Assembly: GCA_017408485.1 (NCBI GenBank)
Contig: JAFQUM010000014.1
Span: forward strand, 1-64,000
Length of the DNA: 64,000 nucleotides
DNA from: Clostridia bacterium
GTDB lineage: Bacteria > Bacillota > Clostridia > Oscillospirales > Butyricicoccaceae
Direction of reading: 5' to 3'
The translations under genes and the position numbers were made by a program. Below are positions 8,614 to 24,169 of this stretch, in pieces (position 1 is the stretch's first letter; the number at the start of each line of letters is the position of its first letter). Below the pieces are notes generated by a model, which saw only the letters and a list, made by a program, of their open reading frames with translations, was not told where the DNA came from and did no database searches.

Positions 8614-8829
8614 ATGGCTGCAAGCTATAAAAAATTGTTCAAATTGATGATCGATCGCGAGATCAAAAGCAAAGACCTTGCCGCAATGGCAGGAATTAGC
8701 CCCACTACACTTGCCAAAATGAAAAAAGACGGCGCCGTTGTCTCCAGCAACGTCCTTGTGAAGATATGTACAGCGCTTGAGTGTAAGATGGATGATATTG
8801 TTGAAATAGTGCCTAACTGCGAAGGTTGA
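8614..8829 (+). CDS. Xre-family (YozG-like) helix-turn-helix regulator
   Basis: The 71-aa protein MAASYKKLFKLMIDREIKS is a typical small HTH_26/Xre regulator: KDLAAMAGISPTTLAKM forms the helix-turn-helix and LVKICTALECKMDDIVEIV the closing helix. The start at 8614 is chosen because GAGGTG lies just upstream and the family always begins at this methionine. It is the first gene of the defence-like operon, 32 bases before the next gene. Such regulators frequently precede restriction and other defence operons and probably control its dosage. Confidence 0.85.
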   Translation: MAASYKKLFKLMIDREIKSKDLAAMAGISPTTLAKMKKDGAVVSSNVLVKICTALECKMDDIVEIVPNCEG

Positions 8830-8861
8830 ATTATATTGTTAAGGAAAACGGAGGAAATAGT

Positions 8862-9857
8862 ATGTCTCAATATGTTGAGCTGTCGGTTGATAGCATTGAA
8901 CTCGATAAAAGCAATCCTAGAATCGCAAGAGGACTTGCTTATTACGACCCTATAACGAGTGAAATTATGGCTTTGCTTTTGGGATCCACTTCCGAAGCAT
9001 GTGCCAGTTTAAGGGAGTCTATTCGAGAAAACAAGGGGATCATTCATCCTATAGTAGTTAACAAAAGAGTTGATGGTTCTTATGTTGTAATCGAGGGTAA
9101 TACTCGCTTGCAAATTTATAGAGATTTCATTGCTTCTGGAGAGCCTGGAGACTGGACTAAAATACGTGCAATTGTATACGATGACTTGAATAGTGATGAA
9201 ATGCACTCAATTAGATTGCAAGCGCATTTAGTAGGCCCGAGAGAATGGGATCCCTATTCAAAAGCTATGTACCTCAACCATTTAGCCAACATAGAGCATA
9301 TGCCAATGAATACACTGATTTCTTTTTGTGGCGGTAACTCTAAAGCATCTGAAATTAGACACATGATTGCCGCTTATAACGATATGGAAAACTTCTATCG
9401 ACCATTATGCGATGATGACTCACAATTTGATATTAGAAAATTTCACGGTTTTGTCGAATTGCAGAATCGAAATATTATGGATGCTCTAACTGCTCGTGGA
9501 TATACGAAAACAGATTTTTCACAATGGATGATAGATGACAGATTCAGTACTTTGCAAGATGTTCGTCGGTTGCCTGATATCCTCAAAAGCAAAAAAGCAA
9601 CAGAGGTATTCTTAAAGGAAAACACGCGTGAAGCAAAGAAAATATTAGTCGTTGAAGAAATGAGTGCAGACAAGTTGAAAGATGTACCGTATGAATTGTT
9701 GGCTCAGGAACTTGCAAAAAGAATGATTGATTTTGGGGTGCATGAACTTAATCATTTACGAGATGATGCAGAATATTCGGGAAAGCTGGATAGTTTGCAA
9801 AGGGCGTATAGTGAAGTAAAGTTTATCCTTGAACAAGTAGGAGTAGAATTAGAATGA
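8862..9857 (+). CDS. ParB/sulfiredoxin-fold protein 1
   Basis: The 331-aa protein carries a ParB N-terminal (ParB/Srx) domain: LSVDSIELDKSNPR near the start, GIIHPIVV (59-66) and the signature VIEGNTRLQIYR (77-88). The fold binds or hydrolyses nucleotides and is used in ParB CTPases, sulfiredoxin and several DNA-modification systems (DndB and Dpd proteins). The C-terminal 230 residues have no familiar domain. The start follows GGAGG. It overlaps the nuclease gene by ATGA and shares its domain with two later genes of the operon, which argues for a multi-component complex. Confidence 0.8.
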   Translation: MSQYVELSVDSIELDKSNPRIARGLAYYDPITSEIMALLLGSTSEACASLRESIRENKGIIHPIVVNKRVDGSYVVIEGNTRLQIYRDFIASGEPGDWTKIRAIVYDDLNSDEMHSIRLQAHLVGPREWDPYSKAMYLNHLANIEHMPMNTLISFCGGNSKASEIRHMIAAYNDMENFYRPLCDDDSQFDIRKFHGFVELQNRNIMDALTARGYTKTDFSQWMIDDRFSTLQDVRRLPDILKSKKATEVFLKENTREAKKILVVEEMSADKLKDVPYELLAQELAKRMIDFGVHELNHLRDDAEYSGKLDSLQRAYSEVKFILEQVGVELE

Positions 9858-10261
9858 GTGAATCTTTACAGCATCAGCAGTTGGTCAAGCAAATTATTGC
9901 AGAGACAATAAGTATCGTTGGAGAAGAGAATAAGTCTTTGATCGCTACTGATGCTGTCGATGGTTTTACTTTGCCTCCTCTTACAAGCGAAGGCTTTCGG
10001 CCAGATGTGTATTATCACTATGGTAGTACGCTGATTATTGGCGAGGCTAAAACAAGTGCGGATATTGAAAGACTGCATAGCAGAGAACAATATGAATCCT
10101 ATATCAAAAAATGTTCGTTATATCAAGGAAATGCATTGTTTATTGTTGCTGTTCCGTGGATGGATCATGCAACCATAAACAACATTCTGTGCAAAATAAA
10201 AAAGAAACACCCTGGCAATTACGAGATAAAGATTCTTGACGGAATAGGAGGTGCTATATGA
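9854..10261 (+). CDS. Small PD-(D/E)xK nuclease-like protein
   Basis: This 135-aa protein shows the restriction-nuclease core: FRPDVYY (D51) followed by LIIGEAKT (E64, K66), a D...ExK arrangement on adjacent strands, then a helix rich in charged residues. Its size suits a stand-alone endonuclease domain. It is translationally coupled on both sides (ATGA overlaps with the ParB-like gene and the SNF2 gene), so it probably acts as the cleavage subunit together with the SNF2 translocase. No exact family was recognised. Confidence 0.7.
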   Translation: MSESLQHQQLVKQIIAETISIVGEENKSLIATDAVDGFTLPPLTSEGFRPDVYYHYGSTLIIGEAKTSADIERLHSREQYESYIKKCSLYQGNALFIVAVPWMDHATINNILCKIKKKHPGNYEIKILDGIGGAI

Positions 10262-11748
10262 AAAAAATACGGTTACTGAAAGAACCAAGTTTGGTTGCAA
10301 AATATAGCGCCTTCCCTTATCAAAAAGAAGCTTTTGATGCTGTTAAGGATTTAGAGTATGCAGCTATTTTTCACGAGCAGGGATTAGGGAAAACAAAAAT
10401 AGCTATAGACATTTTGCTATATTGGTTAGAATCCACTTCGATAGATACAGTTTTGATTGTCACAAAAAAACAGCTGGTACAAAATTGGGTACGAGAGTTC
10501 AAAAATCACACATCGATAAAACCCGCTGTGCTGGATACAGATAAAAATGCTAATTATTATGTGTTTTCCGGCCCTGCGCGCGTAGTGGTTACAAACTTTG
10601 AATTGTTGGTTTCTGAAAAAGAGCGTTTCAAGTTGTATTTGAAAACTCGCAATGTAGGAATTATTATCGATGAGTCTGCAAAGCTAAAAAATCCATCTGC
10701 TAATCTCACAAAAAATTTTTTCGAACTGGCTCCGTTGTTTAAAAAACGGATCATTATGACTGGGACACCAGTTGCCAATCGACCGTACGATATATGGGCA
10801 CAGATTTATTTTCTTGATCGGGGCGCAAGTCTGGGAACCAATTTTAGTGAGTTCAAAAGAGCTACTGATCTATCAAATAAACTCTCCACGAATGAAGATT
10901 TACAAGAAAATTTTGAGAATCATGTTTCTTTGATATTCAAAAAAATAGCACCATTTTCCGTGAGGGAAACTAAGAATAGTGGAATAATTGAGCTTCCAGA
11001 TAAAAGGTATATTAGAGAAGAAGTAGACTTTACGCGCGAGCAAGAAACTTTATACGATCAAATTTGTGAAGAGTTGAAAATCGAGGTCATAAAAAATGGC
11101 AAACTGATAGAAGATGACTCTTCTGCCATTGTAAAAAGGTTGTTGAGATTAGTTCAAGTTGCATCCAACCCACGCTTAGTTGATGAAGCGTATCGTGGGG
11201 TTTCGGCAAAGGAAATCTGTTTGGACTCGTTACTTGCCAAAATCATAGCTGCTGGAGAAAAATGTATTGTTTGGTCCAACTTTATTGAGAATGTAGATTA
11301 TTTCACAAAGAAATACTCGGAATATGGTAGTGTCAAAATCCATGGTGGCATGAAAATCTCTGATAGAAATCAATCTGTAGAACGATTTCGCACAGATAGT
11401 TATCGTGTATTATTTGCGACACCCGCTTCTGCTAAGGAAGGTCTCACGTTGACGATGGCCAATCATGTCATTTTTTATGATCGTGGATTTAGTTTAGATG
11501 ATTATTTGCAAGCACAAGACCGAATTCATAGGATTTCACAAAAGAAAACTTGCTATGTTCACAATATTATTCTCAATGGAAGCATTGACGAATGGGTCGA
11601 TGTGTTATTGCAAGCAAAACAAAATGCGGCTTTTTTAGCACAGGGAGATATGAATTTGAGCGAATATCAAAAAGTGGCTGACTATAGCTTTGGGGATATT
11701 ATTAGATATATTTTGTCGTTGAATCAGGAGGACGAAACAAATGAGTAA
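10258..11748 (+). CDS. SNF2-family DNA translocase/helicase
   Basis: A 496-aa superfamily 2 protein: Walker A in EQGLGKTKIA (40-49), motif II IIIDESAKLKNP (about 137-148), motif III MTGTPVANRP, motif V AKEGLTLTMANHVIFYD and motif VI QAQDRIHRISQ. This is the SNF2/SWI2 layout without extra domains. SNF2 enzymes track along duplex DNA and are the motor of systems such as DISARM and Dpd. It overlaps its neighbours at both ends, pointing to stoichiometric production with the nuclease and ParB-like proteins. Confidence 0.9.
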   Translation: MKKIRLLKEPSLVAKYSAFPYQKEAFDAVKDLEYAAIFHEQGLGKTKIAIDILLYWLESTSIDTVLIVTKKQLVQNWVREFKNHTSIKPAVLDTDKNANYYVFSGPARVVVTNFELLVSEKERFKLYLKTRNVGIIIDESAKLKNPSANLTKNFFELAPLFKKRIIMTGTPVANRPYDIWAQIYFLDRGASLGTNFSEFKRATDLSNKLSTNEDLQENFENHVSLIFKKIAPFSVRETKNSGIIELPDKRYIREEVDFTREQETLYDQICEELKIEVIKNGKLIEDDSSAIVKRLLRLVQVASNPRLVDEAYRGVSAKEICLDSLLAKIIAAGEKCIVWSNFIENVDYFTKKYSEYGSVKIHGGMKISDRNQSVERFRTDSYRVLFATPASAKEGLTLTMANHVIFYDRGFSLDDYLQAQDRIHRISQKKTCYVHNIILNGSIDEWVDVLLQAKQNAAFLAQGDMNLSEYQKVADYSFGDIIRYILSLNQEDETNE

Positions 11749-12730
11749 AATCACTATTGGAAAAAAAGAATATGAGGTTGTTGAAGAACTTCTCAACCAA
11801 TGTGAGTTGTTGTTTTATGAGGCGAATCCTCGCGTTTATTCTATATTGAGGGCAAACGGGACAACTCCAACTCAAAAAGAAATTCAGGCCAAAATGGTGT
11901 CGATGGATCACGTTAAACAATTAAGATTATCCATTGAACAAAATGGCGGTCTCATAGATCCTCTGATCGTTGTGAAGCGTAACGGCGAATATGTTGTTCT
12001 TGAGGGCAACAGCCGTCTTGCGGCATATCGACTTCTTGCAGATAAAGATCCTGTTAAATGGCAAAAAGTTCGCGCAAACATTCTTCCTGAAGAGATAACT
12101 GAAAACGAAATTTTCACGCTCTTGGGTCAATATCACTTAGTTGGCCGTAAGGATTGGAGCGTATTCGAACAGGCGGCATACCTTTATCGTCAGAAAATGG
12201 CCTCTGGTCTTGAAAACGATATATTGGCCAAAAATGTAGGACTTACCGAGGGCAAGGTAAACACCTACATATCAGTTTATACCTTTATGTTAGAGCATGA
12301 CGACCTTCGTCCAGATCGCTGGAGTTATTATGAAGAGTACCTTAAGAGCCGAGGTATTCGCAAATATAGAGAGACTAGCCCCAAAATTGATGATACTTTT
12401 GTAAAGCAAGTCAAGAGCGGTGAAATTAAACAGGCTATGGACGTTAGAACGGTCCTAGGTGAAGTGGCAAAGGCAAGCGATAAGACTGCAAAAAAAATTA
12501 TGCAAGAAATCATTGATGGTTCTGTAGATATATACGACGGTCACGAGCAGCTAAAAGCAACCGGAAAGACTACGAATACCTATAAGCATATAAATAAATT
12601 TCGTGAAACGATTGTATCCGATGATTTTCAAAAGGCGTTATTGTTAGAAGCAACATCAAATTCATCCATTCAGTTCGAGCTAAAAAAGATCAAAAAAGCG
12701 GTTGATGATATTTTAAAGAAAATGTCGTGA
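11741..12730 (+). CDS. ParB/sulfiredoxin-fold protein 2
   Basis: This 329-aa protein has the same core as the first ParB-like gene: LIDPLIVVKRNGEYVV followed by LEGNSRLAAYR (about 87-97), then LGQYHLVGRKDWS, parallel to the LQAHLVGPREWD segment of the first protein. The two are clearly paralogous across some 150 residues, while their C-terminal parts differ; here it is helical and lysine-rich and ends IKKAVDDILKKMS. It overlaps the SNF2 gene by 8 bases. A substrate-binding or DNA-scanning role is inferred from the family. Confidence 0.8.
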   Translation: MSKITIGKKEYEVVEELLNQCELLFYEANPRVYSILRANGTTPTQKEIQAKMVSMDHVKQLRLSIEQNGGLIDPLIVVKRNGEYVVLEGNSRLAAYRLLADKDPVKWQKVRANILPEEITENEIFTLLGQYHLVGRKDWSVFEQAAYLYRQKMASGLENDILAKNVGLTEGKVNTYISVYTFMLEHDDLRPDRWSYYEEYLKSRGIRKYRETSPKIDDTFVKQVKSGEIKQAMDVRTVLGEVAKASDKTAKKIMQEIIDGSVDIYDGHEQLKATGKTTNTYKHINKFRETIVSDDFQKALLLEATSNSSIQFELKKIKKAVDDILKKMS

Positions 12731-12749
12731 TCTCCGAGAGGTTGTTAGT

Positions 12750-14795
12750 ATGAGTAACATTTTATTAATTGAGCCGGATTATAAAAACAAATATCCGCCG
12801 CTTGGCCTTATGAAGATTTCTTATTTTCATAAGCATATTTTGCATGATTATGTTCGTTTTGCTAAAGGGCGACTCCCTGAAGCTTTGTCTAATACCAAAT
12901 GGGATCGAATCTATGTAACGTCATTGTTTACATTTGAATGGGCAAAGACTATTGAAGCAATTAATTATGCCAAAACATTAGTTGATGATATCTCTAAAAT
13001 AACCATCGGAGGTATTGCAGCAACTCTTTTACCGGATCAAATTTTTGAAGAAACCGGTATCTATCCAGTGCGTGGTCTGTTGAATGAACCTGGAAAATTG
13101 GGATTGCCCGGTGATGAGTGTATAGATCAAATTATTCCAGATTATGATATCCTGGATGATATTGATTATGTATATCCTTTTCACGATGCATATTTTTTGA
13201 GTGCAACAAAAGGATGTGGAATGAAATGTGGTTTCTGTGCAGTGCAGACTCTTGAGCCCACTTATATTCCATATATGGATATCAAAGGAAAAATCGCAGC
13301 CATTGATAAAAAATTTGGCCCCAAAAAGGACTTGCTTTTGATGGACAATAATGTGCTGAGATCTAATCATTTCGATCAGATTATTGATGATATTATCGAA
13401 GCTGGATTCGGTAAAGGGGCGACCTACATTAACCCCAAAACCAAGAAAGCAGTACGTCGTTATGTTGATTTCAATCAGGGCCTTGATGGTAACTTGTTTA
13501 CAGAAGCTAAAGCGAAACGATTAGGAGAAATCGCATTACGTCCTGCTCGTGTTGCTTTTGATCACATTGAAGACCGCGAAACATATGAAAAAGCATTGCG
13601 TCTTTGCGCGAAAAACGGTATCACTGAGTTGTCGAATTATGTATTGTACAATAGCGAAGACTTTGGCGGTAAGGGAAAGAAATATCATGCAGATACCCCC
13701 GAGGATTTGTACGATCGTATGAGAATCACTCTTGATCTTAAGGATGAGATCAACAAATCTTTACCTGAAGATCAGCGTGTTGCTGCCTTCTCTTTCCCGA
13801 TGCGATATATCCCTCTTAATGCGCACGAACGTGGATATGTTGGGTCAATGTGGAACGCTAAGTTTTTAAGAGCTGTTCAATGTATGCTAATCCCTACGCA
13901 AGGTAAAGGCGTTGGTAATCGTGATTTCTTTGAAGCTGACTTTGGTAAAGATTCAAAACAGTTTGTTCGATTTTTGTGTATGCCTGATAAACTAATTGCA
14001 GCTCGTGGGCATTTTACAGAAGGTGGACGTGGTAGGACCAAAGAAACTTCAGAGGAGTTAAAAGTCAGAAAGGCAAACTGGGAGAAAAACCAAAGAAAGA
14101 TTAAGGAATGGAATCGTCTTTACGACCAATTAGGCGATGATATTCAATCATTTGTAGCTCTTATAGGTGATAATGAATTTCTTCCTGAAAAGGTACTTGG
14201 TATTTCTTCTGATATTCAAAAGAAATTGTATTTATCATATTTAACAATGCCTCGATTAGTTTCCTTGCTAGGAATGATTAATCACGCCTCGCCTACTTAT
14301 ACTTTGCTTTATGACTATATCAAAGTTGAATTTAAAGAGATGTACTTTGATGTATTAAACTTTGTTGCAACCAGTGAGTCGCAACCCCTATATGTATTTA
14401 AGAGCTTTGCGGATTTCTTTGGCAAAGAAGGAATTTTGGATCTGTTAAAGCTTCTCGCAAAACAAAATTATTCTTCTGATCGTCTTTTGAAAAAATGGAA
14501 TGAAGCTAGCAAGAAGCACAAAATTGACTACGTGGATTTCGAGTTAATACGTGTATATCGAAGATTTGTTGATTTGGATATTCTGTCTAAGGAGAATCAC
14601 CAGTTTGCTCGATATGCTATCGAAACAATGAACATGTCTGGACTCGCTACTATACTTAACAATCATTTTGCCAAATTTGAAGCACAGGTAATCGAGGCTA
14701 TGAGCAATGAGCTGGGACAAAAGATTTTAAAAGATGCGACGAAGGCAATTATGAAAAATATTCAAATGAAGCTGTCGCAAATTTTGAGGGATTAG
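12750..14795 (+). CDS. Radical SAM enzyme with B12-binding-like N-terminal domain
   Basis: The 681-aa protein has the radical SAM cluster motif CGMKCGFC (C156, C160, C163), which binds a 4Fe-4S cluster and cleaves S-adenosylmethionine. The N-terminal 130 residues (ILLIEPDYKNKYPPLGL, then ITIGGIAATLLPDQIF) look like the Rossmann domain of cobalamin-dependent radical SAM enzymes, but no DxHxxG cobalamin ligand is visible. The last 250 residues are helical and unfamiliar. A radical SAM enzyme between ParB-like, SNF2 and GHKL proteins suggests chemical modification of a nucleic acid or of a partner protein; the substrate is unknown. It is 19 bases after the second ParB-like gene. Confidence 0.85.
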   Translation: MSNILLIEPDYKNKYPPLGLMKISYFHKHILHDYVRFAKGRLPEALSNTKWDRIYVTSLFTFEWAKTIEAINYAKTLVDDISKITIGGIAATLLPDQIFEETGIYPVRGLLNEPGKLGLPGDECIDQIIPDYDILDDIDYVYPFHDAYFLSATKGCGMKCGFCAVQTLEPTYIPYMDIKGKIAAIDKKFGPKKDLLLMDNNVLRSNHFDQIIDDIIEAGFGKGATYINPKTKKAVRRYVDFNQGLDGNLFTEAKAKRLGEIALRPARVAFDHIEDRETYEKALRLCAKNGITELSNYVLYNSEDFGGKGKKYHADTPEDLYDRMRITLDLKDEINKSLPEDQRVAAFSFPMRYIPLNAHERGYVGSMWNAKFLRAVQCMLIPTQGKGVGNRDFFEADFGKDSKQFVRFLCMPDKLIAARGHFTEGGRGRTKETSEELKVRKANWEKNQRKIKEWNRLYDQLGDDIQSFVALIGDNEFLPEKVLGISSDIQKKLYLSYLTMPRLVSLLGMINHASPTYTLLYDYIKVEFKEMYFDVLNFVATSESQPLYVFKSFADFFGKEGILDLLKLLAKQNYSSDRLLKKWNEASKKHKIDYVDFELIRVYRRFVDLDILSKENHQFARYAIETMNMSGLATILNNHFAKFEAQVIEAMSNELGQKILKDATKAIMKNIQMKLSQILRD

Positions 14796-14796
14796 T

Positions 14797-16320
14797 ATGC
14801 ACGAAATAGTTATTGGAAAACACACATTAGAATCCCTTACAACGGGTATGTACTCAGATCCGTTTGTTATATATCGTGAATATATTCAAAATGCAGCTGA
14901 TTCTATTGATTCCGCAATAAAGGCTGGAGTTTTGTGTAAGGGTGACGACTGTATAGATATTCATTTGCACATTGCTGAAAAAAGAATTACTATACGAGAT
15001 AATGGTGTCGGCATATCGTCTGCTGATGCGGCCGCAAGATTGTTGAGTATAGGCGACTCTAAAAAAGTTGCTCACCGCACAAGGGGGTTTCGCGGAATTG
15101 GTAGGCTTTCAGGATTGAGTTATTGTTCAAAATTAACATTTGAAACAAGCATGCAATCTGAATGCATAGGTACTCGAGTAACAATTGATTCAAAGAGGCT
15201 CGCGGAATTGTTGGTAGACAATATTGATAGCACATCAACAATAGTTGATGTGCTAAATGAAGTGTATACTGTAGAAACATATCCCGAAAAAGAAAAGTTG
15301 CATTATTTTTCCGTTATAATGGATGGGGTTGATGATTCGGTTAAACTCACGGATTACACAGAGGTAATCAACTATCTTTCTCAGAATGCTCCTGTTCCGT
15401 ATAATTTCGAGAAGTTTATCTGGGGAAAGGAAGTCGTAAACAGACTCTCCCAAAAAGGCTGTAATATTGAGGCATACAATGTTTATGTCAATTATCAAAA
15501 CAGGAGAGAACAGGTATATAAGCCATATACAGATTCTTTCCTAGCAGATAGAAACAAGAATATTATAGATCGCATATCTGACATTCAAATTGTAAGTTAT
15601 ATGAATTCCGAAAACGAAATCCTCGCAGCCGGTTGGATTGCTACTCTTGATTACTTTGGCAGTATATTTGATCGCAGTATAAAAGGAATCCGTTTGCGCA
15701 AAGGGAATATTCTAATTGGCGATAATCAAACACTGAATGTAATTTTTAAGGACGCTCGTTTTAACGGATGGGCTGTTGGCGAAATATTTGCATTACATCC
15801 AAAACTTATACCGAATGCTCGCAGGGATAATTTCGAGAAAAATCCACATTATTTTACGTTTATTGAGAAACTTACCGTTCTTGCTAATAGCATTACAAAA
15901 GATATACGTAATGCTTCATTGAAACGAAACGCCGAGCTTTCTGCAGCTATAGAAGCGACGGAGAGAGTAAGCGAAGCTGCTACAGACGCAATTAATAACG
16001 GGATGTCTGCTTCTCAAAAGAACGTTTTGAAAAGCGAATTGTCCAATATTCAAACCGCGGTAGGACAAGTTCCTCTCAACGGTGAGGTCGATGCCTATTG
16101 TCAGGAGATCGCTTTTGAAGAACTCGATATGCTAATAGGGACAATCAAGGGTGCTACGTCTTTTAAAGCGTTAAATTCGATGAAAAATCTTTCTTCATCC
16201 GAGAAAAAAACATTAGAAAGAGTACTGAAACTAATTATGGAGTATGATGCGGAAGCTTATTCCGATTTAATCGACTTTATACTTAGCGGATACTCTCAAG
16301 GCGGTGAAAATGTTGTATGA
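14797..16320 (+). CDS. HSP90-like GHKL ATPase
   Basis: The 507-aa protein has a complete GHKL ATP site: REYIQNAADSID (E28, N32, D35), IRDNGVGI (about 66-73) and RGFRGIGRLSGLSYC (about 95-109). This is the HSP90/MORC-type arrangement; such ATPases act as ATP-driven clamps and occur in several bacterial defence operons. The C-terminal part (about 370-507) is helical. Only one base separates it from the radical SAM stop, and it overlaps the next gene by 4 bases. It could clamp the modification complex on DNA or gate an effector. Confidence 0.85.
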   Translation: MHEIVIGKHTLESLTTGMYSDPFVIYREYIQNAADSIDSAIKAGVLCKGDDCIDIHLHIAEKRITIRDNGVGISSADAAARLLSIGDSKKVAHRTRGFRGIGRLSGLSYCSKLTFETSMQSECIGTRVTIDSKRLAELLVDNIDSTSTIVDVLNEVYTVETYPEKEKLHYFSVIMDGVDDSVKLTDYTEVINYLSQNAPVPYNFEKFIWGKEVVNRLSQKGCNIEAYNVYVNYQNRREQVYKPYTDSFLADRNKNIIDRISDIQIVSYMNSENEILAAGWIATLDYFGSIFDRSIKGIRLRKGNILIGDNQTLNVIFKDARFNGWAVGEIFALHPKLIPNARRDNFEKNPHYFTFIEKLTVLANSITKDIRNASLKRNAELSAAIEATERVSEAATDAINNGMSASQKNVLKSELSNIQTAVGQVPLNGEVDAYCQEIAFEELDMLIGTIKGATSFKALNSMKNLSSSEKKTLERVLKLIMEYDAEAYSDLIDFILSGYSQGGENVV

Positions 16321-16892
16321 AAAACAAACCAACTAGAGAGCCCAAAACATTATGGGAAAAGTTAACGGCACCATTCAGAGTGCTTTCGGTTGAAAAATTT
16401 TATTGGTTTTGGGTAGTAAGTTACTTTATCTCTTTTGCTGGTCTATTAATTGATCTTCTTAATCATAATTTTTCTAACAGTATAAATAATGGTATGGTTT
16501 TCAGTACGTGCATGGCTATTTTACCGCCCGTATTTATTGAATTTATATCAAATTATATTTATATGAACCGCAAAAAGAGTAAAGAAGAGTACTCTATTTA
16601 TAAGGGTTGGACTATGGGTATTTGTATCGTTATATTAATACTCCTTTTCCTTTTCTATGTTACCGAGATTAAGTCATCTAGGATTGCCCAACTAATTTGT
16701 TTTGTAGTTGTTTTCTTTGCTTTGTTTTATACATATTTGGTAACAAAAATGGAAGTGCATGATACTGTTTTTGAAGATTTCAAAGATAAGCCATATCTTG
16801 AAGCAGAAAAAGAGGTTTTGAGTAAAACTAGGAGTAGAGCAAAGAAATTAAAAACCACAACTACTGCGGAAGGAGTTGAAATAAAGCTATGA
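16317..16892 (+). CDS. Four-helix membrane protein of the defence-like operon
   Basis: The 191-aa protein has four predicted transmembrane helices (about residues 26-46, 58-82, 97-118 and 123-141), with a short basic N-terminus and a charged C-terminal tail of about 45 residues that would lie in the cytosol. No family was recognised. It overlaps both neighbours by ATGA, so it belongs to the same unit. A membrane subunit in an otherwise cytosolic DNA-processing operon could be an effector or an anchor. Confidence 0.7.
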   Translation: MKNKPTREPKTLWEKLTAPFRVLSVEKFYWFWVVSYFISFAGLLIDLLNHNFSNSINNGMVFSTCMAILPPVFIEFISNYIYMNRKKSKEEYSIYKGWTMGICIVILILLFLFYVTEIKSSRIAQLICFVVVFFALFYTYLVTKMEVHDTVFEDFKDKPYLEAEKEVLSKTRSRAKKLKTTTTAEGVEIKL

Positions 16893-17959
16893 AATACATA
16901 TATATGCTTGAAATTAGACAGCCAATTGGTACTTTTTATGTTGGCAAAATGTACGCTCAGGATATTCTTAATATTTCTTTCGTTTCTAGGCGCAAGGGTG
17001 GTCAAGGACATCAAAGATTACTCAAGGAAAAAAGAGCGAAAGAAATAGCACTATACTGTAAAGATCCGGACGCAACATTTCCTACCCCCATTATTCTTTC
17101 AGTAAACTATGATGATTTTAAGAATAAAGATTGTCCTATTCCTGGGGTTGTATGCTTTGAATTTAATGAGACGAAAAGGTTTGCTGAAATTCTCGATGGT
17201 CAACATCGTATGGCTGGAATTTCTAAATCTGATGAACTGGATTTTGAATTGCCAGTAATCATTATGTTTTCGCTTAGCGAGGAACAAAAAGGTTATGTTT
17301 TTTCAACTATAAATGGAAACCAGGCTAAAGTTGATAGGTCATTGATATATGATTTGTTTGCCTTAAACAAAACTCCGAGTCCTTATAAAACCTGTCATCA
17401 AATTGCCCGGATTATGAATTCCGATCCCAAATCTCCTTTTTACCGTCGGCTGAAGATGCTAGAAAAGAGGGAGAATCGGCTTGAAACGATTTCGCAGAGC
17501 ACATTTGTTACAAATCTTTGTGAATATTTAATTAGTAAGAATTCTCAAGAAGATGAGATTAACATTAAACGTAAAATTAAGTTGGAAGATAATCCAAAAC
17601 TTCCCTTAAGAAAATATTTTATATCAGGAAAGGACGAAGTTATTTTACGGATTTTAATGAATTACTTCACTGCAGCGGAATCGGTTTTTTCTAAAGAGTG
17701 GAATAATCCGGATGAATATATTCTTACAAAGTCAGTTGGTTTTGAAGGAATGATATCTGCGCTTGCTACGCTAATTCCAACGGGGGAAAAACTTGGTGAT
17801 TTAAGCAAAGAGTATTTCGTGAAAATTTTTAGAAACTTAAAAAATCACTTACATATGAGTAACATTGAATTGACTTCACAAAGTTTTTCGTCTAGTAGCC
17901 AAAATGCAAATCGTTTGGCTAAGCTGATTATAGATTCGAATAATTCACTGTACGAGTAA
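16889..17959 (+). CDS. DGQHR-domain (DndB-like) protein
   Basis: The 356-aa protein contains ILDGQHRMAGI with the DGQHR signature at 103-107 and a typical FSTINGNQAKV segment about 146-156, as in DndB and other DGQHR proteins. The DGQHR fold is a variant of the ParB/Srx fold, so this is the third protein of that superfamily in the operon. DndB is the regulator and DNA-binding ATPase of phosphorothioate modification; no DndC/D/E partners are here. It ends the overlapping gene series, and a gap of 82 bases follows. Confidence 0.85.
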   Translation: MKYIYMLEIRQPIGTFYVGKMYAQDILNISFVSRRKGGQGHQRLLKEKRAKEIALYCKDPDATFPTPIILSVNYDDFKNKDCPIPGVVCFEFNETKRFAEILDGQHRMAGISKSDELDFELPVIIMFSLSEEQKGYVFSTINGNQAKVDRSLIYDLFALNKTPSPYKTCHQIARIMNSDPKSPFYRRLKMLEKRENRLETISQSTFVTNLCEYLISKNSQEDEINIKRKIKLEDNPKLPLRKYFISGKDEVILRILMNYFTAAESVFSKEWNNPDEYILTKSVGFEGMISALATLIPTGEKLGDLSKEYFVKIFRNLKNHLHMSNIELTSQSFSSSSQNANRLAKLIIDSNNSLYE

Positions 17960-18519: not shown

Positions 18520-18783
18520 ATGGTTAAAGAACTAATACACGATCCGATATATCTGGCGGGAAAGTCGGGGTTGGCGACAAAAGAAGATTTGCAGGTCGCA
18601 CAGGACTTGCTTGATACGCTGATAGCGCACAAGGACAGCTGTGCCGGTATGGAAACGTTGACGATTGTGACGAAACGTATGAGTTGTTTGAAAATGAACT
18701 CGACGGAGTTATTAAGTCGCGGTGGTGTGCTGAATTTAAAAAACGAGTTTGAAATTGGTAAGTATCTGTTGAATAGAGGATGA
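18520..18783 (+). pseudogene. Truncated peptide deformylase fused to a foreign tail
   Basis: The first 44 codons (MVKELIHDPIYLAGKSGLAT, then KEDLQVAQDLLDTL and CAGM) match the N-terminus of clostridial peptide deformylases, where CVGMAANMIG should follow. After GM the similarity stops. From there another frame reads DDCDETYELFENELDGVIKS and continues to a stop near 18,750, looking like the tail of a different protein. All metal-binding deformylase motifs are absent, so this is a junction scar of two genes. The host presumably has a complete def elsewhere. Confidence 0.65.
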
Positions 18784-18788
18784 AAGAT

Positions 18789-19859
18789 ATGGCTGGAATG
18801 TTAGAAAACTTGGAATTTGATGTAAGTACATTTGCAGAGAAAGGAGTTCGGTTTTTTGAAGAGGAAGAAATATTACAGTGCAAAATCGATTCGTTTTCTG
18901 CCTTTGAGTATCTCATTTCAAGTTTAGGACGAGGAAGTTATCACTATGATTGTACATGGGACAGATTCTATCGTGGAGTATCAAACAAAGAATATGATTT
19001 GATTTGCAGCTTGTGTGTAAATAACCTCGAAGACAAAGAAGCGGATATAATAAATAGTCTATATTCGCGCGCACCGGATGAGTTTTCTTCATGTAAAACT
19101 GATTTTGAAATGGTTGCTCTTATGCAACATTATGGATTACCTACAAGATTGCTGGATTTTACAAGAAATCCGATGATTGCGTTGTGGTTTGCTTGTCAAA
19201 GAGATACGAAATGCAAGCTCGGGGAGGCTGATGGAGCTGTTTATTTGGCTTTTTCATCACGAAATACTCCTAAAAAAATAGTCGATTCTATTTTTAAAAT
19301 GGCACTTGCAGATGATATCGATAAAGCAGTAGATTTGAGGAATATTTTCTCAAAATCAGAAATATACGACTACATACTTGTAAACGAAATCCATTGTAAT
19401 CACATGTTATTCTTGGATGCCCCAATTATTGATTTGCGAGAAAGGAATCAACAAGCAGTTTTCTTGCTGGGAGTAAACGATATTTTAATGTCGGAAAAAT
19501 CCAGCTCCAACGAAAAACGATTGGTAAAGGCAGATAATTTTATTGAAGCTTTATCTGAATTGAGCAATGAAAATAGCTCGATTAGATTTGACCTGGGCGA
19601 AATACATTGTTATCAAAAAAATAGAGATAGTGATAAGGTGCTTAAAATTATAATTCCCAAAGAGTTAAAAAGGGAACTGCTTTATGAGTTGAGCGTAAGA
19701 GGGATAGATGAGACATTTATATATCCTACACTTGATAACTATTGCAAAGAAATAAAACGACAGGCAAGACATAAACATGATGTGAGCGAAGAAAAGTGGA
19801 ACTTGTGTAAAAAATATCTACTTGAGTATGCTGAGAACTCAAAAACTGATATGCAGTAA
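18789..19859 (+). CDS. FRG-domain protein
   Basis: The 356-aa protein has the FRG signature: FYRGVSNKEYDLICSL near residue 60, then MQHYGLPTRLLDFTRNPMIAL and WFAC about 115-140. FRG proteins are common in defence islands and phages and are suspected to be toxins or effectors, without a settled activity. The start at 18,789 is preferred over an ATG nine bases upstream because GAGG lies nine bases ahead of it. It precedes the large nuclease-ATPase gene by 35 bases, so the two probably form a pair. Confidence 0.85.
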   Translation: MAGMLENLEFDVSTFAEKGVRFFEEEEILQCKIDSFSAFEYLISSLGRGSYHYDCTWDRFYRGVSNKEYDLICSLCVNNLEDKEADIINSLYSRAPDEFSSCKTDFEMVALMQHYGLPTRLLDFTRNPMIALWFACQRDTKCKLGEADGAVYLAFSSRNTPKKIVDSIFKMALADDIDKAVDLRNIFSKSEIYDYILVNEIHCNHMLFLDAPIIDLRERNQQAVFLLGVNDILMSEKSSSNEKRLVKADNFIEALSELSNENSSIRFDLGEIHCYQKNRDSDKVLKIIIPKELKRELLYELSVRGIDETFIYPTLDNYCKEIKRQARHKHDVSEEKWNLCKKYLLEYAENSKTDMQ

Positions 19860-19894
19860 ACAAAGAAAAAGCAAAAATAATGTAAGGAGTAGAA

Positions 19895-22800
19895 ATGAAT
19901 TGGACAACTTTTAATACACACCAAATGTCACCGGATAAAGCATTTGAAATATTATGTAACCAGTTGTTTGAAAATTGGTGCAAGAGCGAGTATGTAGGCT
20001 TGATTTCTTCTTTTGCTGTGGTTAATGGTTCTGGTGGCGATGGTGGAGTGGAGTCGTACTTAACATTGAATGACGGCAAGATTATCGGATTACAAGCTAA
20101 ATGGTTCCCTAGCAGTATTGATAGCTCAGCGATTAGTCAAATTAGAAATTCAATTGAAACAGCAATTCGAGTTCGTCCTAATATTATTAGATACATTGTA
20201 TGTGTGCCACGAGATTTAGCATCAAAGACGGCTCGCACACTTAAATCGGGTAATTCAGAAGATAATAGATGGAATGCGCTGGTTCAAGAAATGAGTACCG
20301 AATTTCCAATGTTAGAAGTTGAATTATGGAATGAAACAAAAATCACAGAAGAGTTACAGAAAGCTGACTGCTCGGGAATATGTAGGTTTTGGTTCGAAAA
20401 TTCGGAAATTTCGTTAGAATCGGTAAAATATGCTTTTGATCGAGCAAAATGCAGTTGGTTGTCTAATAAATATGTTCCAGAATTAAATATGTGTGGGAAA
20501 ATAGATAAAATACTATCTGATTTCTTAGGCGATGAAATCGAAAGAGAAGCACTTTTATCTAGTTTCCATATGATTTGCAAGCATTGTGAAGAATATAAAA
20601 AGGCATCTGTGGATTTTCTTTCGATTTGTAAAGGTAAAGATGAAGAACTTAAATCTATTTTGATCTCCACAGGTGAAAAACTGGAAGATTTGTATGTCCA
20701 ATGCGAAAGAATTTGCTGGTTGTTATCGGGAGAAAAGTCGTTCTTTAATGTTGATGACGATGTACATTGTTACATTAACTTTGACTCCATAATAGAGCGA
20801 ATACAACACAATCAGCAAGCATTTCATCATCATTTCCATTCTTCAGAAGTTACGAAAGCGCTTCGAAGGCTATCTAAATATGATGTAAATGCATTATTAG
20901 AGAAAGTTAAGGCCGGTTGTGAAACTAGATCGATATTGTTTTTGGGAAATCCGGGAACGGGAAAAACTCACGGAATAGCAGCGTTTGCGGACAAATTATT
21001 TGAGAAGGGACTCCATGTACCGCTGGTAATTCGTGCTATGGATATCCCATCATCCTTTGGTTGGAGAGATATTATAGTAAAGAATTTGGGGTTGTCATCT
21101 ATATGGAGTGAAGAACAACTACTTCAGGCTTTATGTTCGTTAGCCAACCGTAATAGATTTAATGGAGTGTATTTGAACTCTAAGATAAAAGTTGTTCCTA
21201 AGATTTTAATTGTTGTAGATGGTATAGATGAGTCTATTCCTCATAGTAGGTGGGAGGAACGAATTCGAGAAGCAAAGCTTATTTCAGCAAAATACCAGCA
21301 GATAAGATTCTGTTTTACTACAAGGCCTACGGCTATTCCGAATCCTCAGCGAGAGTTTGTCAAACACTATCACTTAAGTAATAGCGGGGATGTATTGACA
21401 AAAGATTTGTTTGATGATTATATGCATGCGTACAACGTTAATGCGCAAAACAGGGGGTGGCTAAAATCGGCTTTAATAACGCCGTTGTCCTTGAAACTTT
21501 TTTGTGAAATCAATAAAAACAAGTCGGTTACCATTTCAGAACGTTCCGAAGTTTCTATGACAACACTGTGGAGACAACAAATTGATAAAGTCGAGACAGA
21601 GTTTGGTGAGAAGTATTCTATTGATTCGAGAAATCAATATATATTGCAAGCAATTGTTTTGTTATCTAATATGTTTTTGACCGAATCGGTATTAGATAGA
21701 GATCTCATATTGTCCGCATTTAACTCTAAATTAGGGTTGTCAGAGGATAGGTCCGAACAATTATTGTACTGCCTGGAGAATTATGGTATCTTGAGTTGCA
21801 GTTGTGAACGCGGGAATGGATTGAATCCTGACAAATATAAGTATTTTCACGGTATTCAAGGATATTTCGACTATGCGACCTCCTCTCTTCTGTTGAAACA
21901 GTTTGGACATCCTAAAGATATTGATTTTAGTAAATGCAAAGGGGTTTCTTTAAACGTATTGAACGGTTTAGCTGTCATATCAATGCAAAAATATGATTAT
22001 CTTATCACTAGGAATAGTACGATTAAAGAGGTCTTGTATTTAGATGAGTTCGAAGAACTGCAGTTTTTTGCATTGGTTCATACTAATCATAAAAATGCCA
22101 TTCAATTTGTTGAGCGCTCTCGCGAAATCATGAACGAAAATGCGGACGGATTAATTACAATCGCCAACAGAGTTGTGCTTCCATTAGCCAAAGATATTGG
22201 GCATCCTCTAGGAGTAAATCTTTTGGACGATTTCTTGAGTCAATTTGAAAGACCAGCTCAAAGAGATATATTGTGGTCGATCCCTGGCTACCTAAAAGAT
22301 AGTTATGGTAAGAGGTGGAATCAGCCCGATTCCTTCGCGCTGGAAGAAGAGGAATACAACCTTGATTCAGAGGATACTTTTGAAGGGGTGCCAACAATAT
22401 ATGCATGGGCACTTTCATCCGTAAATAATTCTTTTAGGAGGCTTTACAGAGATAGGCTGATGGTGTGGGCGAGATCTGTGCCGCAAGAATTCTACAAACT
22501 GTTTCTTAAATTTTCCAACGTAAATGATCCGCAAATTAGAGCCGATTTGTTTTCAATCTTGATGTGTCTTGTTCATGACATCAAAGACACAGACTTGTTA
22601 GATAAAGCAACCCGTTGGATTATGGAAAACATCCTTCATCCAAGCAAAATTGATCTGAATAGGGATATTGCAATTCGATACTATTCAATAGCAATTGTCA
22701 AAAAAGCCATATACGAAAAGTTAATAACTGAGGATGAGTGTAAAGATTGCTTGCCTCCTTATCAAGTTAAAACTAATGACATATCATTGAATAAGGAGGC

Positions 22801-24169
22801 GTTAGCGGGAACTCGTATGAATGGTTATAAAGCCATTGATTACGATCTTTCTCGATATGTATTGGTTGACCACTTCCTTTCTGATTTTAGCAGCTATACA
22901 AATAAAAAAAGCAAAGGACAAATATTGAACCTAATAGCATGCATCGCCAAAGATCATCCGGAATACTTAGGCATTACTGAAGAACAATTCTTTATTTCTA
23001 TGGCTTATGCATACATACTTGAAATGGGATGGAATGAAGAGGAGTTTTACAACTTTGAAAAAGATGATGCAGGTAATGATATTATCGGTGGAGCGGATAT
23101 TGCTATATTGAGAACTTATCATGCAGCAACGCATGGTAGCAAAAGCGCTGTTATGACTGTATGCGAAAAATACGTGTGGCAAGCGAGAAACTCGATTAGC
23201 GGTTTTTTGTGCGATAGATTGTTGTATGGAGATTCAGGTATACGAATTACTGATTACGGTTTACTTGACGATTTTGTTATCCCTTCGCATGATCTTGTGC
23301 AAATAGATCCGGATAATATTCCCGAAGATAGACCTTGGCATATTCCTGAAGAAAAAAGTGTAGTACTGGAAGGGGATAATCAGTCGAGAGAAGATGTTGT
23401 GAATAGCGTAGTATTAGCACCTATATTGGATTGGGAAAAATGGATTTCTGTCGATAATCCATCTAATAAATATAAGGTAGACGCCGATAACTTGATGGCG
23501 TTGTATATGTTTTCTTGCTTTTATGGTAGTGCGGGCGTTGAAACAGACATATTTATTAATTCAGTAATAGTCGATTTGGCGCAAGTGGATGATTTTATTG
23601 AGCAATTGTGCGAAAGAGCAAAGAAATATAAAAACGTTGCTAATCCTATGGATTGGAATGGATCAATTGCCTCATCATGTTATATAACACCAAAAGAGAT
23701 TTGTTGTTTCCCTTGGAAAACAAGGTACGATCCTTATATTGCTGAAGATTTTCCAACCATTGCTATAACAGCAGCGGTAGATTCATGCTGTTGTAATACG
23801 CTAGACTTTGGCGATGTGCACTATGAAGTTCCTTCTGCGATGGTTAGAGAGTATCTTGGAATAAAAGATACTGATGGATATACTTACATTGATTCACAAG
23901 GCAAAGTTATTGCGGAATATACGTTAGCAGGTGAGAAGTGGAGAACATATCAAAGTTCTCTACTCATTAACCGGTCTCTTCTGTTGAAAAAGCTTGAGAA
24001 GAACAATAAAACTTTAGTATGGATTATGAAAGAAAGACGCCGTAATTCTGGCATGACAATGGAGAAATACGGACGATTTGGAGTAGATAGAATGAAGAGT
24101 TTTGTTGGTTACTATAGCAATGGAGTATTTACCGTTAAGGAAATCATTTCTGATTTGGAAAGTTACTAA
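19895..24169 (+). CDS. Nuclease-STAND ATPase (Avs-like antiphage protein)
   Basis: A 1,424-aa protein. Residues 1-150 resemble an Mrr-like nuclease domain: GGDGGVESYL (D49, E53) followed by GLQAKW (Q67, K69), the D...QxK active site. A NACHT/STAND ATPase follows, with Walker A GNPGTGKTH about 350-358, Walker B ILIVVDGIDES about 435 and the arginine loop FCFTTRPTA about 470. The remaining 900 residues are helical and lack known motifs, as in the target-sensing arms of Avs proteins that recognise phage proteins. AAGGAG precedes the start. By analogy, sensing a phage protein would assemble it and activate DNA cleavage. Confidence 0.8.
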   Translation: MNWTTFNTHQMSPDKAFEILCNQLFENWCKSEYVGLISSFAVVNGSGGDGGVESYLTLNDGKIIGLQAKWFPSSIDSSAISQIRNSIETAIRVRPNIIRYIVCVPRDLASKTARTLKSGNSEDNRWNALVQEMSTEFPMLEVELWNETKITEELQKADCSGICRFWFENSEISLESVKYAFDRAKCSWLSNKYVPELNMCGKIDKILSDFLGDEIEREALLSSFHMICKHCEEYKKASVDFLSICKGKDEELKSILISTGEKLEDLYVQCERICWLLSGEKSFFNVDDDVHCYINFDSIIERIQHNQQAFHHHFHSSEVTKALRRLSKYDVNALLEKVKAGCETRSILFLGNPGTGKTHGIAAFADKLFEKGLHVPLVIRAMDIPSSFGWRDIIVKNLGLSSIWSEEQLLQALCSLANRNRFNGVYLNSKIKVVPKILIVVDGIDESIPHSRWEERIREAKLISAKYQQIRFCFTTRPTAIPNPQREFVKHYHLSNSGDVLTKDLFDDYMHAYNVNAQNRGWLKSALITPLSLKLFCEINKNKSVTISERSEVSMTTLWRQQIDKVETEFGEKYSIDSRNQYILQAIVLLSNMFLTESVLDRDLILSAFNSKLGLSEDRSEQLLYCLENYGILSCSCERGNGLNPDKYKYFHGIQGYFDYATSSLLLKQFGHPKDIDFSKCKGVSLNVLNGLAVISMQKYDYLITRNSTIKEVLYLDEFEELQFFALVHTNHKNAIQFVERSREIMNENADGLITIANRVVLPLAKDIGHPLGVNLLDDFLSQFERPAQRDILWSIPGYLKDSYGKRWNQPDSFALEEEEYNLDSEDTFEGVPTIYAWALSSVNNSFRRLYRDRLMVWARSVPQEFYKLFLKFSNVNDPQIRADLFSILMCLVHDIKDTDLLDKATRWIMENILHPSKIDLNRDIAIRYYSIAIVKKAIYEKLITEDECKDCLPPYQVKTNDISLNKEALAGTRMNGYKAIDYDLSRYVLVDHFLSDFSSYTNKKSKGQILNLIACIAKDHPEYLGITEEQFFISMAYAYILEMGWNEEEFYNFEKDDAGNDIIGGADIAILRTYHAATHGSKSAVMTVCEKYVWQARNSISGFLCDRLLYGDSGIRITDYGLLDDFVIPSHDLVQIDPDNIPEDRPWHIPEEKSVVLEGDNQSREDVVNSVVLAPILDWEKWISVDNPSNKYKVDADNLMALYMFSCFYGSAGVETDIFINSVIVDLAQVDDFIEQLCERAKKYKNVANPMDWNGSIASSCYITPKEICCFPWKTRYDPYIAEDFPTIAITAAVDSCCCNTLDFGDVHYEVPSAMVREYLGIKDTDGYTYIDSQGKVIAEYTLAGEKWRTYQSSLLINRSLLLKKLEKNNKTLVWIMKERRRNSGMTMEKYGRFGVDRMKSFVGYYSNGVFTVKEIISDLESY

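Follow-up and report, generated by a model that had tools for sequence, protein, structure and literature searches.

This locus raises the question of what a radical-SAM protein (rSAM) does in an operon of ParB-like proteins, an SNF2-type helicase and a GHKL ATPase, and whether its substrate is DNA. The window, that is, the whole stretch of 64,000 nucleotides that was analysed, lies on contig C38 of a 1.33 Mb genome that is 64% complete. The rSAM gene is the fifth of eight genes in an operon at positions 8826-17959, with the following features:

8826-9857, + strand: ParB-like protein 1 (ParB1), 343 aa, which opens the operon; match to Pfam ParB_N (E 1.7e-4) short of the gathering cut-off
9854-10261, + strand: small protein of 135 aa, conserved between ParB1 and the helicase, with 4-bp overlaps with its neighbours; no match in Pfam, PADLOC or NCBIfam
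10258-11748, + strand: SNF2/SF2 helicase-type ATPase, 496 aa; Pfam SNF2-rel_dom E 1.3e-29, Helicase_C E 2.3e-20
11741-12730, + strand: ParB-like protein 2 (ParB2), 329 aa; weak ParB_N match, TIGR00180 parB_part E 3.9e-4, below cut-off
12750-14795, + strand: rSAM protein, 681 aa, ATG start, no internal stops
13215-13238, + strand: codons of the [4Fe-4S] cluster motif C156-G-M-K-C160-G-F-C163, invariant in alignment A2
14797-16320, + strand: GHKL-type ATPase, 507 aa; Pfam HATPase_c_3 E 6.7e-11
16317-16892, + strand: predicted membrane protein, 191 aa; weak membrane-protein Pfam matches
16889-17959, + strand: DGQHR/DndB-like protein, 356 aa; NCBIfam TIGR03187 DGQHR E 7e-52, over cut-off

The rSAM gene starts 19 bases past ParB2 and the GHKL gene 1 base past the rSAM stop, and the other neighbours overlap by 4-8 bases. 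Across the loci of relatives, ParB2 is conserved beside rSAM, and the GHKL ATPase, which in the window has a weak likeness to the Hsp90/TRAP1 N-domain, adjoins rSAM in most loci. A counterpart of the 191-aa membrane protein was present in one other fetched locus only (L022). The last protein of the operon also matched TIGR04172 (E 8.7e-57, below that model's own cut-off) and Pfam DndB (E 2.5e-12). A DGQHR/DndB-like protein is thus common to the window operon and Dnd phosphorothioation; the scanned operon genes (Pfam, PADLOC, NCBIfam) included no DndC, DndD or DndE. Downstream of the operon, positions 18780-24169 encode a protein with an FRG domain (Pfam FRG E 3.5e-19) and an Avs2-like protein of 1424 aa (PADLOC Avs2 E 2e-70; NCBIfam Avs2 below cut-off). 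Since these two genes follow directly, the rSAM operon is part of a larger defence island.

The rSAM protein was divided into a B12-binding-like Rossmann domain (residues 1-130), a radical-SAM core with a conserved extension (about 148-430) and a lineage-specific helical domain (about 430-681). The preliminary description had reported an intact CxxxCxxC cluster and the lack of a DxHxxG motif, and both observations hold across the family: the three cysteines (C156, C160 and C163) have counterparts in all 119 relatives, and DxHxxG, missing from the window protein, occurs in only 2 of the 119. A further motif, DFNQGxD, was found in 119/119. Judged by sequence, the family is far above chance: tblastn confirmed 417 candidate stretches in the contigs of one genome collection, and an alignment of 60 divergent members has 31 invariant columns. 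Profile comparison against Pfam and NCBIfam gave no radical-SAM family over cut-off, and NCBIfam gave nothing at E 0.1; one phage relative had a weak match to PF02310 (E 0.0095, below cut-off). Orthology to a known enzyme outside defence loci, which had been named beforehand as the finding that would speak against a nucleic-acid role, was looked for and did not emerge. The rSAM protein therefore appears to belong to no known enzyme family among those compared. The open-access literature searched contained no description of this rSAM in a defence locus, and mention elsewhere is possible.

An AlphaFold2 model of rSAM (pLDDT 94, pTM 0.87) agreed with the domain layout suggested previously. The B12-binding-like Rossmann domain proposed for the N-terminus was recovered, as residues 1-120 matched the cobalamin-binding AerR (VIA Z 9.6, 113 residues, rmsd 3.1), and the barrel matched many radical-SAM structures. 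Residues 1 to about 438 matched AprD4 best (VIA Z 18.0, rmsd 3.5, 350 residues), with MgmA (Z 17.1), TsrM (15.5), MiaB (15.0), RimO (14.5), CysS (14.4) and OxsB (14.2) as other matches; viperin structures matched the radical-SAM core only (Z 8.4). With the B12-type enzymes AprD4, MgmA, TsrM, OxsB and CysS, rSAM has a two-domain fold in common over residues 1 to about 430. However, the structural alignments have only 9-18% identity, DxHxxG is missing, and the motifs DFNQGxD and YKNKYPP set rSAM apart from these enzymes as a separate family. In the methylthiotransferases MiaB and RimO, the N-terminal domain has three conserved cysteines that serve an auxiliary cluster, whereas rSAM lacks them: fewer than 20% of the 60 alignment rows have a cysteine in any one column ahead of residue 150. 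By its modelled fold, rSAM belongs with the B12-type and B12-like radical-SAM enzymes, whose chemistries are methylation or dehydration, and not with the methylthiotransferases. The enzyme families listed in the VIA comparison favour none of protein, RNA or metabolite as substrate.

TsrM, a close fold match, binds cobalamin without the DxHxxG histidine motif, so the missing motif leaves cobalamin use by rSAM possible. The hosts did not help on this point, because genes with B12-binding domains were present in 46/46 host genomes and gave no discrimination. The claim that the helical C-terminal part has no known match also stands. Modelled alone (residues 408-681, pLDDT 91), it had no PDB match below E 0.001, the best being armadillo-like at E 0.4. 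This half lies outside the family core, and many of the relatives, which are shorter, lack such a tail. A coupling between the tail and the GHKL neighbour was considered (Fisher p 3e-15 over 82 loci) and set aside, since the tail changes only twice on the tree and 0/6 independent pairs agree, which makes the link a clade-level coincidence so far.

The rSAM gene was found in 8 of 398 genomes drawn evenly across the phylum (about 2%, window included) and is hence an accessory gene. The genome relatives examined were the best 80 of the 417 stretches, and the 77 distinct genome loci covered at least 17 named phyla, one of them archaeal. In viral contigs, 462 stretches were confirmed by tblastn and the best 80 were kept, representing 79 loci. 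The closest relative (85% identity) lies in a Lachnospiraceae genome (locus L018, 8610-10000), where the ParB-SNF2 genes are lost and rSAM and GHKL are kept; the last ParB2 codons are fused there to an ORF that reads like glycerol-3-phosphate dehydrogenase.

The genes accompanying rSAM differ between loci. Module types were defined as clusters of neighbouring ORFs, with domain calls made on representatives and other labels assigned by clustering. On this basis 72 of the 77 distinct genome loci fell into a module, and there are at least six alternative partner modules in all: ParB-small-SNF2-ParB as in the window (type A, 32/77), NurA-HerA (type B, 6/77), DISARM DrmA-DrmB-NERD helicase (type C, 10/77), PbeA-PbeC with a CxC-ATPase (type D, 11/77), DGQHR pairs (DGQHR/PIN; type E, 10/77) and PD-lambda-5_A (type F, 3/77). 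The five loci outside modules were L018 with its ParB2 remnant, L041 with a ParB-like gene, L074 with a helicase fragment at a contig edge, L034 and L043. The NurA-HerA type was confirmed against the PDB (HerA 7f6d, E 7e-60; NurA, E 7e-4). When five modules were scored on the rSAM tree (119 sequences, a quick tree with SH-aLRT support only), at least 16 changes were needed compared with 33 if shuffled, so a partner module stays with an rSAM lineage for some time before another takes its place. The window rSAM groups on the tree with a pair of DISARM-type enzymes that are 72% identical to it. Seen from the partner side, all seven plasmid records matching SNF2 (E limit 1e-40) carried rSAM, as did all seven matching ParB1, and both sets fall within 12 rSAM plasmid records. 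The even draw of 398 genomes, which was unbiased, contributed seven rSAM loci besides the window; these and the locus of one same-family genome from an earlier search were all of type D (PbeC) or type B (NurA-HerA) (8/8), one of the eight (L207) having a more distant rSAM relative without DFNQGxD.

The partner PD-lambda-5_A is of particular use for the question of function. In PD-lambda-5 systems elsewhere, a D12-class DNA methylase accompanies PD-lambda-5_A, and in type F loci rSAM occupies that place beside a PD-lambda-5_A-like protein with a full-length match (PADLOC E 4e-60), whereas the ParB proteins of the window match only the first ~100 residues of PD-Lambda-5_A (PADLOC). All five loci with PD-lambda-5_A-like genes and no rSAM had a gene of 283-293 aa that carries a methylase motif, directly adjoining PD-lambda-5_A in four and one gene away in L230; four of the five were Pfam D12 adenine methylases (E 5e-18 to 1e-22). 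Where rSAM is present, it follows the PD-lambda-5_A-like gene by 10-68 bp in L046, L055 and L118 and precedes PD-lambda-5_A in L053. However, L046 and L055, which are of DpnII type, keep a methylase beside rSAM, which counts against rSAM being the modification subunit. In one operon, each of these two loci has a DNA methylase and a DpnII-like endonuclease (a Pfam match in L055, by similarity in L046), then the PD-lambda-5_A-like protein and then rSAM.

DISARM combines DrmA and DrmB with DNA methylases, and ten sampled rSAM relatives lie in DISARM-type loci, DrmA and DrmB being typed in L029 and the remaining loci assigned by clustering. In L029, DrmA (E 3e-161), DrmB (E 1e-52) and a NERD helicase are followed by rSAM-GHKL. 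Unlike DISARM proper, the rSAM-bearing loci of this type show rSAM (with GHKL in most) and no methylase motif, and the window genes at 8826-17959 have no DrmA or DrmB match (PADLOC). Among eight DrmA/DrmB loci without rSAM, three had a DNA methylase and three had an Hsp70-like protein and no detected methylase. The latter count against a strict modification slot, and methylase replacement by rSAM as a strict rule in DISARM was rejected because of them. Three DrmAB-type loci with NERD helicases (L198, L199 and L200) have an Hsp70-like protein in the methylase's stead. PbeA (E 5e-222) and PbeC (E 5e-174) lie directly upstream of rSAM in L047, and the other type D loci were assigned to the PbeABCD/CxC ABC-ATPase class by clustering; a 153-aa gene in the place of PbeD had no PADLOC match. 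It has been reported that Pbe-class systems pair with phosphorothioation or cytosine methylation, and the rSAM version is not described there (PMC10853773). DndC-like PAPS_reduct genes were present in L211 and L213. DISARM-like and Pbe-type systems have a variable position comparable to that of rSAM, which elsewhere holds methylases, phosphorothioation genes or an Hsp70-like protein. In operon types A-E no methylase was detected by sequence motif among genes outside the assigned partner clusters.

Beside one partner, rSAM and a DNA methylase take each other's place, and rSAM has joined DNA-translocase or nuclease modules of different origin again and again; it is most simply read as a DNA-modifying subunit. 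Its operons are tight and combine ParB or DGQHR proteins of DNA-binding type with a GHKL ATPase and with a DNA-translocating or nuclease module, of which there are several. Judging from this gene context, the balance tips slightly towards rSAM being the modification subunit of restriction-modification-like systems and acting on DNA, on which it probably puts a chemical mark. The preliminary description had argued from the SNF2 and ParB linkage to a nucleic-acid substrate. This argument is strengthened by the partner swaps among DNA-acting modules and by the methylase replacement beside PD-lambda-5_A, while DNA as the substrate is still something that we infer. The fold counts against the DNA reading, in that it is no closer to enzymes acting on nucleic acids than to those that modify proteins or metabolites.

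In such a system, rSAM would cleave SAM reductively and the radical would modify host DNA, on a base or a sugar, wherever the ParB/DGQHR proteins select a site. The coupling of this site to the effector would, in some systems, fall to the GHKL ATPase, and the SNF2 module (or DrmAB, PbeAC or HerA-NurA) would attack DNA without the mark. GHKL ATPases are known partners of restriction-modification systems, where a role in connecting the recognition site with the cleavage site has been proposed for them (PMC2292703). The effector module of the window would be ParB-small-SNF2-ParB; since no nuclease domain was recognised in it, DNA may be stalled or remodelled by the window version, or cut by a nuclease activity of the ParB fold. 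A wider proposal is less likely than not, namely that the rSAM family writes a new carbon-centred self mark on DNA and is exchanged as a cassette among DISARM, Pbe, PD-lambda-5, HerA-NurA and ParB-SNF2 systems, and that phage relatives beside ParB-like genes possibly mimic this mark.

Other substrates have to be weighed against DNA. If rSAM modified a partner protein (ParB, DGQHR or the GHKL ATPase) and thereby switched the defence complex on or off, this would agree with the second-best fold match, MgmA (Z 17.1), being a protein glutamine methylase, and with rSAM and GHKL being adjacent in many loci and moving together through partner changes. However, many rSAM loci lack GHKL and the partners differ completely between modules, so that no single protein substrate is common to the rSAM loci; the methylase exchange in PD-lambda-5 loci would also be left unexplained, and we regard this explanation as unlikely. 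It is still harder to credit that rSAM modifies RNA (tRNA or mRNA) as an immune effector, in the manner of a diverted MiaB-type enzyme. MiaB (Z 15.0) and RimO (Z 14.5) are among the fold matches, but the N-terminal domain is without conserved auxiliary-cluster cysteines, and in place of RNA-binding proteins the partners include helicases and translocases of DNA as well as restriction proteins.

Among radical-SAM enzymes with a role in defence are the prokaryotic viperins, which act on nucleotides (PMC12926258), and following this precedent rSAM might make a small antiviral molecule such as a modified nucleotide. Viperins do appear among the fold matches (Z 8.4), but through the common radical-SAM core only and far below the B12-type matches, and an enzyme making a metabolite would not be expected to need, or to exchange with, DNA-restriction modules; such a role is very improbable. 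DNA would be the substrate also if rSAM were a repair or demodifying enzyme stripping marks from phage DNA so that the linked nucleases can cut. Its linkage to many kinds of DNA-processing modules and the more distant branch in phages beside ParB-like genes would be compatible with this. However, a protective mark would account for carriage by phages better than the stripping of a phage's own marks does, and the exchange with a methylase argues for the making of marks, so that only a low probability is given to demodification.

Defence-linked DNA marks have so far been mainly methylation, phosphorothioation and deazaguanine exchange. If rSAM is a DNA-modifying subunit, a radical-SAM writer common to several defence chassis would represent new DNA chemistry, would show what does the modifying in systems seemingly without a methylase, and would be a new candidate among enzymes for labelling DNA. 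Cultured carriers exist, which makes the question directly testable: Novosphingobium aromaticivorans plasmid pNL1, Rhizobium leguminosarum pR132505 and Eubacterium sp. 14-2.

Some observations concern the more distant relatives. Those in phages (L120, L121, L123, L124, L126-L129, L131, L135 and L137) have about 26-31% identity and lie mostly directly downstream of a ParB-like gene of ~200 aa, several of them just upstream of the terminase large subunit. Among the phage neighbour genes, ParB_N matched in L121 and L129 only (over cut-off in L129), and L127 had a weak GmrSD_N match. An association of phage rSAM with DNA methylases (cluster c6) was dropped, as the adjoining ~200-aa genes read as ParB-like. 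In PbeC loci, more distant radical-SAM proteins without DFNQGxD were encoded at L217:13236-14465, L224:11311-12483 and L207:7803-9056, so that radical-SAM enzymes of more than one family may have entered PbeC systems. Furthermore, two viral contigs (L111 and L133) carry two tandem radical-SAM genes, the second of which clearly matches Pfam Radical_SAM (E 7e-13 in L111).
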